The notes beneath the pieces were generated by a model. It worked only from the letters and a program-made list of their open reading frames with translations. It was not told the origin of the DNA and did not search any database. Shown here in pieces: positions 2,967-19,439 of a stretch of 20,800 nt of DNA. Source of the DNA: a virus. The position numbers and the translations under genes are program-made. The stretch spans positions 1 through 20,800 of the IMG/VR virus record IMGVR_UViG_3300034119_000290; one strand, written 5' to 3'. The stretch's first letter is position 1; each line of letters opens with the position of its first letter.

Positions 2967-3320
2967 ATGTCCACAAATTCACAAATTGCATTCAACCCAC
3001 AAGGAGAGACCATCGTCGTCGCAGCTGATGCGGTCGCTCCTGCTGGTATCCAAGCCCCTGTCTACGAGAAGTTCAACCCACAAAATGCTGGTCAGTACCG
3101 CTTCGTGAACGCTGGAAGCAATACCGTGTTCTTGGGCACTGGAGCAAGCGCAGCAGAGGCGACAGCCAATGCCGTGGCTCCGGTGGCCGGAAACCCGTCT
3201 CCAGCTGTCGTGCTGGTGCCTGGTGCTGTCGAAATCTTGCGCTTCAACAAGGACACTTTCTTCAGCGGTCTGGCCTCTGGCGCGACCACCGTCTACGTCA
3301 CGCCCGGCCAGGGCATCTAA
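2967..3320 (+). CDS. Conserved phage protein, probable virion decoration/structural protein
   Basis: 117 residues with GGAG eight bases before the ATG and 12 bases after the upstream stop. The sequence is rich in alanine, valine, glycine and proline with alternating hydrophobic residues, suggesting a beta-sandwich. It includes QAPVYEKFNPQNAGQYRFVN, VFLGTGASAAEATANAV, VLVPGAVEILRF and a C-terminal VYVTPGQGI. I recognise this as a recurrent phage family placed between tail fibre and lysis genes, without an established function. No signal peptide or membrane segment is visible. A small capsid or tail decoration role is inferred from position and composition only. Confidence 0.5.
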   Translation: MSTNSQIAFNPQGETIVVAADAVAPAGIQAPVYEKFNPQNAGQYRFVNAGSNTVFLGTGASAAEATANAVAPVAGNPSPAVVLVPGAVEILRFNKDTFFSGLASGATTVYVTPGQGI

Positions 3321-15847: not shown

Positions 15848-15950
15848 AAATGGCCTGTTAATCACCTTGACCATTGTGCTTGTTGCACTTGGCCAGTGGT
15901 GGGGCGTCGTTGCGCTGTGGCTTTGGCTGATCTGGACGAGGTGGAAATGA
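15834..15950 (+). CDS. Tiny tryptophan-rich membrane protein (38 aa)
   Basis: ATG 15834 lies inside the end of the upstream gene (14-base overlap) and the stop overlaps rusA (ATGA). After MEQLENG the product is a single hydrophobic helix (LLITLTIVLVALGQWW, VVALWLWLIW) ending in TRWK. Six tryptophans. Second tiny membrane gene of this operon; function unknown. Confidence 0.58.
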   Translation: MEQLENGLLITLTIVLVALGQWWGVVALWLWLIWTRWK

Positions 15951-16294
15951 TCATCAAGCTGCCCTGGCCACCCACCGGCCTATCCCCAAACGCCAGAAAC
16001 CATTGGGCCAAGATCGCCAAGCTCAAAAAGCAGTACCGCGAGTCCTGTTTCTGGCATGCCATGGAGCAAGGCGCACGCCCGATCCAGTCCGCCAGCCTGC
16101 ACCTGACCCTGACGTTCTACCCGCCAACCCGCAGGCAGTACGACCTGGACAACGCCCTGGCACGCATGAAAGCCGGGCTCGACGGCCTGGCCGACGTGCT
16201 GAAGGTAGACGACAAACACTGGACGCTGACCATCCGCAAGGGCGAGACGGTCGGCGGATTCGTAGAAGTTCACATCGAAAGGCCCACAGAATGA
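15947..16294 (+). CDS. rusA: RusA Holliday junction resolvase
   Basis: 115 residues. YDLDNALARMKAGLDGLADV holds the catalytic aspartates D66 and D68; D88/D89 in KVDDKHW are the third position; PWPPTGLSPNARNHW is the usual N-terminus. It cuts Holliday junctions formed by the annealase/exonuclease system and by branched replication before packaging. Length fits the family. Overlaps both neighbours by ATGA. Confidence 0.92.
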   Translation: MIIKLPWPPTGLSPNARNHWAKIAKLKKQYRESCFWHAMEQGARPIQSASLHLTLTFYPPTRRQYDLDNALARMKAGLDGLADVLKVDDKHWTLTIRKGETVGGFVEVHIERPTE

Positions 16295-17538
16295 AACTCC
16301 CAGACCATCTCGAAGTCATCCAGATCGATGCGCTGATACCCTACGCACGCAACAGCCGGACGCACTCCGACGCGCAGGTGGCGCAGATCGCCTCATCCAT
16401 CAAGGAATTCGGATTCACGAATCCTGTGCTGATTGATGGGGGGGGGGGAATCATTGCCGGACATGGCCGAGTGCTCGCTGCACGCAAGTTGGGCATGAGC
16501 GAAGTCCCGTGCATCCGATTGGAGCACCTGACCGACGCACAAAAACGCGCTTATGTGATCGCAGACAACCGGCTGGCGCTGAACTCAGGCTGGGACACTG
16601 AAATGCTGAAGGTGGAGTTTGCCGACCTGCAGGAGCTCGGTTTCGACCTCGAGCTGACCGGCTTCGACCTTGACGAGATCAAGGAGCTACTGGCACCCGT
16701 TGGCACCGAAGGCCTGACCGACCCCGACGACGCCCCACCGCTGCCAGAACACCCGCGCACCGTACCCGGCGACATTTGGGTGATGGGAAAGCACCGCCTC
16801 CTGTGTGGAGACAGCACCAGCATGGACGACCTGGCCAAGCTCTGCGAAGGGCAGCTGGTCGACATGTGGCTGACCGACCCGCCTTACAACGTGGCCTACG
16901 AGGGCAAGACAAAGGACGCGCTCAAGATCAAGAACGACGAGATGGGCGACGACCAATTCCGACAATTCTTGCGTGATGCTTACACGGCAGCCGACACGGT
17001 CATGAAGCCAGGCGCTGTGTTCTACATCTGGCACGCAGATAGCGAGGGCTACAACTTCCGAGGCGCGGCCAAGGACGCTGGCTGGACTGTCCGCCAGTGC
17101 CTGATCTGGAAAAAGTCCAGCATGGTCATGGGACGCCAGGACTACCACTGGAAGCACGAGCCATGCCTGTACGGCTGGAAGGAAGGAGCCAGTCACCTCT
17201 GGGCGGCCGACCGCAAGCAGACCACCATCCTGGAGTTCGAGAAGCCCTCCCGGAACGGTGAGCACCCGACCATGAAGCCCGTTGCCCTGTTTGAGTACCA
17301 GCTCCTGAACAACACCAAGGGCGGCGATCAAGTCCTGGACAGCTTCGGAGGCTCCGGCACCACCCTGATCGCAGCCGAGAAGAACGGCCGCGTCGCTCGA
17401 ATCATGGAACTCGATCCGAAGTATTGCGATGTGATTGTGAAGCGTTGGCAGGATTTCACAGGCAAAATAGCAACTCACGCAGAAACTGGCGAACCTTTCG
17501 CGGAGGTTACAAATGGCAACAACGAAACAAAAACTTGA
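16291..17538 (+). CDS. ParB-like domain fused to beta-class adenine DNA methyltransferase
   Basis: 415 residues. Residues 1-100 form a ParB/Srx-like domain (IDALIPYARNSRTHSDAQVA, then IIAGHGRVLAARKLGM). The methyltransferase follows: DPPY at 196-199 (motif IV, adenine-N6 type), a central target-recognition region (about 205-345), and FGGSGTT at 352-358 (motif I). Motif IV before motif I means class beta. Modification of the phage genome against restriction is the usual role. Residues G50-G53 are encoded within an 11-G tract (16438-16448); the frame is intact and gives the length expected of the family. It overlaps rusA by 4 bases and the small terminase gene by 26. Confidence 0.93.
   Translation: MKLPDHLEVIQIDALIPYARNSRTHSDAQVAQIASSIKEFGFTNPVLIDGGGGIIAGHGRVLAARKLGMSEVPCIRLEHLTDAQKRAYVIADNRLALNSGWDTEMLKVEFADLQELGFDLELTGFDLDEIKELLAPVGTEGLTDPDDAPPLPEHPRTVPGDIWVMGKHRLLCGDSTSMDDLAKLCEGQLVDMWLTDPPYNVAYEGKTKDALKIKNDEMGDDQFRQFLRDAYTAADTVMKPGAVFYIWHADSEGYNFRGAAKDAGWTVRQCLIWKKSSMVMGRQDYHWKHEPCLYGWKEGASHLWAADRKQTTILEFEKPSRNGEHPTMKPVALFEYQLLNNTKGGDQVLDSFGGSGTTLIAAEKNGRVARIMELDPKYCDVIVKRWQDFTGKIATHAETGEPFAEVTNGNNETKT
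16438..16448. repeat. 11-base poly-G tract inside the methyltransferase gene
   Basis: Eleven consecutive G follow GAT at 16435-16437 and encode Gly-Gly-Gly plus the first two bases of a fourth glycine codon, in the ParB-like domain. Tracts of this length are prone to slippage in replication, transcription and sequencing. In the given length the frame is open. Confidence 0.95.
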
Positions 17539-17992
17539 AAAATCGGTTCCAAAAAAGGAATTGAAGCAAAAAGAACACGGCGGCGCACGTGAAAACTCTG
17601 GCCGTAAGGCTTTTGAACCCACCGATGCCGAGCGCAAACAGGTGGAAGCCATGTCCGGCTACGGCCTACCGATTGAGCAGATTGCCGTGCTGGTTCGAGG
17701 CGGCATTGACACCGACACCCTGCGCAAGCACTTTGCCAGGGAGTTGATTGAGGGCAAAGCCAAGGCCAACGGCCAGGTCGGGAAAACCCTGTTCCAGAAG
17801 GCCATGGGCGGCGACACTACCGCAGCCATTTGGTGGAGCAAGACCCAGATGCGCTGGAAAGAGGTGCAGGCCCATGAGATCACTGGCAAGGACGGCGCAC
17901 CGATTACCGTGGCCACCCTGGACGTTTCCAAACTGGGCACCGAGGTGCTGGCGCAGATCATGGCCGCAAAAGATGCAACTGACGCAAGCTGA
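17513..17992 (+). CDS. terS: Terminase small subunit
   Basis: 159 residues. A lysine-rich start with GARENSGRKAFEPTDAERKQ precedes a helix-turn-helix (QVEAMSGYGLPIEQIAVLVR, DTDTLRKHFARELIEGKAKA) and a helical oligomerisation region (AMGGDTTAAIWWSKTQMRWK). This is the common TerS-like layout of phages whose large subunit follows directly. It recognises packaging sites and controls the motor. It begins inside the methyltransferase gene and ends 20 bases inside terL. A general DNA-binding role is the alternative. Confidence 0.8.
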   Translation: MATTKQKLEKSVPKKELKQKEHGGARENSGRKAFEPTDAERKQVEAMSGYGLPIEQIAVLVRGGIDTDTLRKHFARELIEGKAKANGQVGKTLFQKAMGGDTTAAIWWSKTQMRWKEVQAHEITGKDGAPITVATLDVSKLGTEVLAQIMAAKDATDAS

Positions 17993-19439
17993 TCTTCTGG
18001 CCATCGAGCGCGAGCTGTGCAGGAGAAGCCTGGCCGAGTTTGCCAAGCGTGCATGGCGCGTGCTTGAACCGGCTGCCGAGCTGAAGTGGGGCTGGGCGCT
18101 CGATGCCATCTGCCTGCACCTGGAGGCCGTGACTAAGGGCGATATCAACCGCCTGCTCATGAACGTGCCACCCGGCTCCATGAAGTCCCTGTTGACCGGC
18201 GTGATCTGGCCAGCCTGGGAGTGGGGGCCAATGAACCTGCCAGAGATGCGCTTTGTTGGCACGGCCCACGAAGAGCAGCTGGCCATTCGAGACAGCCGAC
18301 GATGCCGCGACCTGATCAAGTCCGAGTGGTATCAGAAGCTCTGGCCCATCGAGCTGCTGGCCGATCTGGACGGCAAGCGCGAGTTCGGCAACACAAAGAA
18401 GGGCATCCGGCAGGCCCGAGCCTTTACCAGCATGACCGGCGTGCGCGGCGACAGGGTTATCCTGGACGACCCGATCAGCGCCGACAACGCCAACAGTCAG
18501 GCCAAGCTGGAGGCAGCACGCATTGCCTTCACTGAGACCCTGCCGACCCGTGTCAACTCCGACAAGTCGGCCATTGTTGTGATCATGCAACGCCTGAACG
18601 AGAAGGACATTTCAGGCGTCATTAAGGAGATGGGCCTGCCGTATGTGCACCTGTGCATCCCGATGCGCTTCGAGCCAGCCTTCCGCTGCACCACCAGCAT
18701 CGGCTGGACAGACCCGCGCACCGAGGAAGGCGAGCTGATGTTCCCCGAGCGCTTTGGTGAGGTGCAGGTCACCGAGCTGGAGCAAACCCTTGGCACCTAC
18801 GGCACAGCCGGACAGCTGCAACAGCGGCCAGCACCTAGAGGCGGCGGCATCATCAACACCGACTGGTTCAAGTTCTGGTCAAGCATCCCGCAGCTTGAGT
18901 TCCGATTCCTGACCGTGGACACGGCCCAAAAGACTGCCGACCACAACGACTGGACGGTGCTGCAGTGTTGGGCACGCTCAAGCATTGGCCAGGCGGTCAA
19001 GCTCGACCAGGTGCGCGGCAAGTGGGAGGCCCCCGAGCTGCTGGTGCAGGCCAGGGCTTTCTGGCTCAAGCACCTGAACGACCAGCGGCCCGTGGCCCAA
19101 GGCTCCGCCATGCGCGGCATGTACGTCGAGGACAAGGTGTCGGGCACCGGCCTGATCCAGACCTTCCGGCGCGAGGGCATCCCAGTGGTGGCCGTGCAAC
19201 GCAACAAGGACAAGATCAGCCGAGGCTATGACGCAGCCCCGTTTATTGAATCCGGCAACGTCCTGCTGCCGCACGACGCGCCCTGGCTGTCCGATTTTCT
19301 GGCCGAGGTGGCCGCTTTCCCGTCTGGTGCACACGACGACCAGCTTGATCCCATGTTCGACGCCATCAACCTGGTGCAGCGGCTTCCGGCCAACAAGGCT
19401 GCCAGCTTCAAACCGCTGCCGGTTGTCAATCGATGGTGA
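17973..19439 (+). CDS. terL: Terminase large subunit
   Basis: 488 residues from ATG 17973; an open frame to 17748 is a shadow of the small subunit gene. ATPase: Walker A-like VPPGSMKS (65-72) and Walker B VILDD (162-166). Nuclease: D316 in LTVDTA, E386 in YVEDKVSG, and HDDQLD (454-459). GNVLLPHDAPW is also typical of this group. It pumps DNA into the prohead and cuts concatemers, docking on the portal encoded next. The gene is complete, and 34 bases separate it from the portal gene. Confidence 0.95.
   Translation: MQLTQADLLAIERELCRRSLAEFAKRAWRVLEPAAELKWGWALDAICLHLEAVTKGDINRLLMNVPPGSMKSLLTGVIWPAWEWGPMNLPEMRFVGTAHEEQLAIRDSRRCRDLIKSEWYQKLWPIELLADLDGKREFGNTKKGIRQARAFTSMTGVRGDRVILDDPISADNANSQAKLEAARIAFTETLPTRVNSDKSAIVVIMQRLNEKDISGVIKEMGLPYVHLCIPMRFEPAFRCTTSIGWTDPRTEEGELMFPERFGEVQVTELEQTLGTYGTAGQLQQRPAPRGGGIINTDWFKFWSSIPQLEFRFLTVDTAQKTADHNDWTVLQCWARSSIGQAVKLDQVRGKWEAPELLVQARAFWLKHLNDQRPVAQGSAMRGMYVEDKVSGTGLIQTFRREGIPVVAVQRNKDKISRGYDAAPFIESGNVLLPHDAPWLSDFLAEVAAFPSGAHDDQLDPMFDAINLVQRLPANKAASFKPLPVVNRW

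Follow-up and report, generated by a model that had tools for sequence, protein, structure and literature searches.

The window analysed here, a stretch of 20,800 bases that makes up a complete virus record, carries a gene (positions 16,291 to 17,538, plus strand, as are all features below) for a 415-residue protein in which a ParB-like domain is fused to a beta-class amino DNA methyltransferase. Both halves are covered by the profile phrog_498, which matches residues 4–412 (597.7 bits, E 5e-179) and is described in PHROGs as DNA methyltransferase and nothing further. The ParB_N-like domain (16,309 to 16,560; residues 7–90) falls just below the cut-off of Pfam PF02195 (24.7 against 26.3 bits), weakly matches the Noc chains 7ng0 and 7nfu (E 7e-4) and contains the G tract that is the subject of this analysis. 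The N6_N4_Mtase domain (16,858 to 17,439; residues 190–383) scores above the cut-off of PF01555 (84.6 bits), and its PDB matches include CcrM. Amino DNA methyltransferases of the beta class carry the DPPY motif ahead of an FxGxG motif, and in the window enzyme DPPY (16,876 to 16,887; residues 196–199) precedes FGGSG (residues 352–356); presumably DPPY favours m6A over m4C as the product. Unlike in many relatives, the loop preceding DPPY holds no G tract here.

The upstream neighbour, a RusA-like Holliday junction resolvase gene (15,947 to 16,294; phrog_34, E 4e-26; start chosen from the sequence), runs four bases into the methyltransferase gene, and the genes that follow encode the terminase small subunit (17,513 to 17,992; phrog_309) and large subunit (17,973 to 19,439; phrog_38; start likewise chosen from the sequence). 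Profile matches place NinB, primosomal, Erf, exonuclease and SSB genes on the same contig, and the gene layout appears to be of the lambdoid kind. Among the nine window neighbours scanned with PADLOC there was no match to a defence family, the res restriction subunit included. The closest named phage record is MW202867, with 78.6% protein identity and no G run of seven or more in its gene.

The tract is a run of 11 Gs at 16,438 to 16,448, with GAT directly on its 5' side and an A directly on its 3' side; together with A16,449 it codes for Gly50–Gly53, in a hairpin turn before GHGR. A preliminary description of the sequence had reported this run, and the 415-residue reading frame does continue through it as LID-GGGG-IIAGHGR, the open (ON) state that had been assigned to the window. 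The expectation that gain or loss of a single G would end the protein early also holds, as both shifted frames are closed by a stop, 19 or 53 codons downstream of the tract start. The family spacing had been given as LID-x2-GG-IIAGHGR; the homologue alignment bears out the four residues but not the glycine pair, which is common without being fixed, and the spacing is better written LID-xxxx-IIAGHGR, with four variable residues. The run exceeds every other homopolymer of the window by four bases or more (the runners-up have 7), and about 0.007 G or C runs of 11 or more would be expected from the dinucleotide frequencies of the window. In 16 coding sequences of the window, GGG is the least used codon for glycine (20 of 299 glycine codons, tract excluded). 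In an AlphaFold model the tract-coded turn lies between strands at residues 46–48 and 53–56, and a glycine run would be tolerated there because the residues of this hairpin turn are free to vary.

The same site was searched in viral contigs for eight or more Gs before IIAGHG, which returned 32 contigs. L164, L162 and L163 are identical to contigs that also appear as L002, L004 and L057, respectively, and each such contig was counted once here and in the pair and DPPYN counts below; L184, a poly-G pattern match that proved unrelated, was removed from the counts. Tracts of G8 to G14 occupy the same hairpin in 31 viral contigs other than the window. With the window included, the frame is ON in 22 and closed (OFF) in 9 of the 31 that could be assessed, L185 being unassessable. 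ON forms include GAY-G11-A, G12 and CA-G10, as well as G14-A with one extra glycine, and OFF forms include G13, G10-A and G11 without the A; where the tract takes the form GC-G(n)-C, n = 9 is ON and n = 8 and n = 10 are OFF. In five off-frame relatives the predicted products in the ParB frame have 68 (L177, L190), 96 (L163) or 103 (L162, L173) residues. On a 28-row tree, from which five swapped-core sequences were left out and in which support is weak for 12 of 23 inner branches, the ON/OFF state changes at least seven times for eight OFF rows, so that the OFF rows are scattered, and tract presence changes at least twice. The occurrence of same-site lengths in all three frames across 32 sequences argues, at the level of sequence, for the phase-variable reading first suggested for this locus.

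A second pattern search, blind to the tract, found 69 contigs, 27 with the tract and 42 without. Of the 29 contigs in that search that share at least 80% identity with the window over the first 49 residues, 27 carry it (L003 and L194 do not), and the close relatives L003 (95%) and L082 (94%) are without it. Retention within this close clade is what would be seen if the glycines, or a G-rich structure of the DNA, were conserved for a function of their own and length variation were incidental. We consider this very improbable, as the tract occupies different loops in different lineages and none of the 168 assessable homologues that are tract-free at this loop, all of them in frame there, has an all-glycine loop. 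These homologues, together with the 31 further contigs in all three frames, also speak against a tract peculiar to one assembly in a family that codes the same glycines with mixed codons, the outcome that had been named as telling against phase variation. A separate observation at the same motif concerns L047 (2495–2620, set against L009, 1074–1150), in which the DNA coding for IIAGHGR repeats every 50 bases; one extra copy is present and the gene is out of frame beyond it, possibly a second kind of repeat switch.

Further G-tract sites were present in the first loci ahead of HRLMCGDS, ahead of DPPYN and close to the C end, and in the AlphaFold model (mean pLDDT 82.7) the three main sites are the loops at residues 49–52, 166–167 and 186–189. 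Eight or more Gs before DPPYN occur in at least 120 viral contigs by pattern search, compared with 1 contig for the control pattern of eight or more Cs before DPPYN and 3 for eight or more Gs before Walker-A GTGKT (raw counts, unscaled to the frequency of the bare motifs). Ten or more Gs precede DPPYN in 76 contigs (40 ON, 30 OFF and 6 unassessable), and all 156 loci in hand with at least eight comprise 103 ON, 43 OFF and 10 unassessable. Before HRLxCGD the G8-or-longer pattern occurs in 8 contigs, 1 of which is ON, a proportion biased by the lower limit of the pattern; the five HRLCGD loci with G8 are all OFF and cannot serve as a rate because their ON length is below that limit of 8. In one fast tree of 252 methyltransferase parts the tract before DPPYN changes at least 23 times, a rough result because the searches enriched tract rows and branch support was not considered. 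In cellular genomes the corresponding patterns were found in 0 of 369 (same site), 0 of 391 (DPPYN) and 0 of 4 (a further pattern search).

Enrichment within the gene was also seen in 160 loci among the protein-similarity matches listed, ranked by similarity to the window: G or C runs of nine or more number 8 in 194 kb of gene against 4 in 1,030 kb of flank (p 1e-4), and A or T runs of that length number 0 in the gene and 11 in the flank. Of the eight runs within the gene, three (L002, L004 and L057) belong to the tract type of the window; among the four counted as flank, that of L005 is inside the gene and those of L049 and L117 lie no more than about 140 bases upstream of it. The latter two (G10 at L049:122 and C12 at L117:4861, about 90–140 bases upstream of the methyltransferase match) are perhaps promoter-type switches. 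Other runs were observed as C10 within the gene ahead of the methyltransferase domain (L113:2441), as G15 about 2.5 kb upstream of the methyltransferase match (L048:496) and, in Castellaniella sp. S9 (L127:6246), as G11 near the C end of the gene, where the following frame differs from that of the homologous tail.

OFF states are frequent, at 30 of the 70 assessable loci with ten or more Gs before DPPYN, as they would be if a dispensable gene were neutral or decaying and its mononucleotide runs were drifting. The ON share at these loci nevertheless exceeds the one in three expected from random frames (p 4e-5, for contigs that are not independent), no stop was seen in the upstream frame of 35 OFF loci, the tblastn scan of the tract contigs showed no other frameshift, and the runs are Gs in loops and not other bases, all of which makes decay improbable. 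Lesions of other kinds do occur among homologues. Three Streptococcus pyogenes prophage homologues without a G tract (L363, L364 and L365) are annotated in two pieces. Annotation of this kind in the S. pyogenes prophages Javan476, 492 and 447 resembled OFF states and was rejected as such; the match length of these loci is the same as that of Javan486 and they contain no G run of seven or more, so that theirs is a different lesion. On a Providencia rettgeri plasmid (L360:4001–6052) the homologue matches as two pieces over 2,052 bases in which no gene is listed, and something may lie between them.

All tract lengths are taken from assembly consensuses, and the main alternative, raised already in the preliminary description, is that sequencing, PCR or assembly error produced the OFF states as consensus errors of a true length that is always in frame. 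There are signs that the tract is difficult to assemble: L005 is garbled and G/C-rich at 3050–3100 beside a G12 run, probably an assembly fault due to the tract, and is elsewhere 99.6% identical to L180; moreover, the whole-contig loci L185, L215, L288, L312 and L340 start or stop at the tract or within 10 bases of it, and therefore the tract does break assembly. Runs of 8–9 Gs are usually assembled well, however, and OFF states with only 8 or 9 Gs, at the same site in L168 and L191 and at 13 DPPYN loci, would be hard to blame on sequencing. An isolate record, the Roseomonas marmotae plasmid p1318-3, holds a prophage copy with G9 before DPPY and a frame broken at the tract, a locus at which the (incomplete) gene table lists no gene. 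No frameshifts were found by tblastn in 83 kb of aligned neighbouring coding sequence of the tract contigs, in a scan that took in the rest of the gene (32 contigs), RusA (16), TerS (30) and TerL (25) and that could miss a shift close to a gene end; homopolymers of eight or more other than the tract number five in 294 kb of these contigs. Error would also leave unexplained the recurrence of G tracts in several loops and the contrast with the control patterns, and as a full account we regard it as unlikely, though it is the strongest of the alternatives.

Length differences were then sought among 37 contig pairs with at least 99% identity across a tract (224 kb aligned). Tract length agrees in 31 pairs and differs in 6, and 6 of the 9 indels in the whole alignment lie inside the tract, a clustering with a chance probability of about 2e-15, or 3e-10 when taken by strain cluster (4 of 7). 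The six differing pairs fall into four strain clusters, in two of which both members of every differing pair are OFF. L199 (OFF) and L226 (ON) share 5,896 nt with zero mismatches and one gap, a single G in the tract; L239 and L311 also show an ON/OFF flip, and both members of L260/L307 and of L248/L391 are OFF with lengths two Gs apart. Within the clade of the window itself, none of the four comparable pairs at this identity differs in tract length, a fifth (L005/L180) not being comparable because L005 is garbled at the tract, and for that clade the case for switching draws on differences between lineages. In these assembly comparisons the length of the repeat varies and sets the frame, as in repeat-driven phase-variable genes.

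A different role for the run would be programmed slippage of RNA polymerase or the ribosome, which would yield a short ParB product and the fusion at any DNA length. The downstream frame is open in the OFF contigs among those listed, as if some enzyme were still made. Programmed slippage predicts a conserved length, though, and the observed lengths span 8 to 18 and take in every frame; of the 160 homologues among the similarity matches listed, most have no G or C run of nine or more. It is an unlikely substitute for switching in the DNA, a shade less so than decay and a shade more so than error, and it could coexist with such switching. These assessments overlap more generally, in that some of the alternatives can hold jointly with the preferred explanation, in which slippage in the tract turns the gene on and off.

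The enzyme also varies by replacement of its core (16,810 to 17,349; about residues 174–353, limits approximate as identity was taken in 30-residue bins). Three other core alleles stand behind the same tract and ParB region, in L176/L190, L182/L186 and L193, with 12–60% identity to the window per 30-residue bin and a tail kept at 63–100%; in L193 the change starts sooner, at about residue 144. L190 (OFF) and L176 (ON) share a core allele and are 97.8% identical to each other. Type III mod genes have a swappable core flanked by conserved ends, and the same arrangement, known from the mod genes of phasevarions, is found here.

Taken together, the window gene is likely a phase-variable phage methyltransferase, a contingency locus, and the viruses carrying these tracts probably switch the enzyme by copying slips, as judged from their sequences. 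Replication slippage would gain or lose a G, one third of lengths leaving the ParB-methyltransferase frame open and the rest ending the protein after about 68–103 residues, and additional slips could undo the change. The ON enzyme, a predicted beta-class amino-methyltransferase, would mark the phage's own DNA ahead of packaging, and a core swap would change its target site. A mixture of ON and OFF genomes may thereby hedge both against hosts that cleave DNA lacking the modification and against hosts that cleave DNA bearing it. The broadest form of this reading seems to us evenly poised between right and wrong: that solitary phage methyltransferases switched by slippage and with swappable cores evolved repeatedly and independently, as a counterpart of phasevarions that keeps modified and unmodified genomes in a mix as a hedge against opposite kinds of restriction.

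Switching by poly-G in phages has a precedent in the Fletchervirus phages of Campylobacter, where it acts on receptor-binding proteins (Sorensen et al. 2021, Cell Rep 35:109214, as relayed in sections of PMC11868660 and PMC8713573). The two systems share, as far as those sections describe, a phage gene with a poly-G tract, ON/OFF switching and diverse phage populations; they differ in that the gene here encodes a DNA methyltransferase, is known mostly from metagenomic viral contigs and has tracts in several loops. Phase-variable bacterial methyltransferases are well known (PMC12003011 and PMC13076061, in part), and, as in the Type III mod phasevarions covered in part of PMC13076061, a repeat tract would switch a methyltransferase. 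Unlike those, the present gene is phage-borne and a ParB fusion, with no defence-family match in the nine window neighbours scanned, and it also stands apart from other phrog_498 members, most of the 160 among the matches listed being without a G or C run of nine or more. No report of a phage-encoded phase-variable methyltransferase was found in open-licence PubMed Central papers, a scope with most subscription journals outside it, and within it poly-G switching in phages is prior art for receptor-binding proteins and not for a methyltransferase. Histophilus somni prophage methyltransferases with repeats were set aside, as the repeats lie in glycosyltransferase genes instead according to the relevant portion of PMC3339403, and a term search of a paper on gut phage methylation (PMC10477858) gave no mention of phase variation, ParB, homopolymer or frameshift.

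Switching driven by repeats is known best from pathogenic bacteria, and a 2025 review, in the passages concerned, leaves its distribution across phage phylogenies to later studies and raises the question of why switching at multiple loci seems confined to pathogens (PMC11868660). Here, a family of phage enzymes bears the marks of such switching in several loops of one gene. If this reading is true, phage DNA modification would be heritable and yet changeable. The interpretation of restriction data, host range and phage methylomes would then be affected, and some genes of this kind may have been filed as broken though they are merely OFF.
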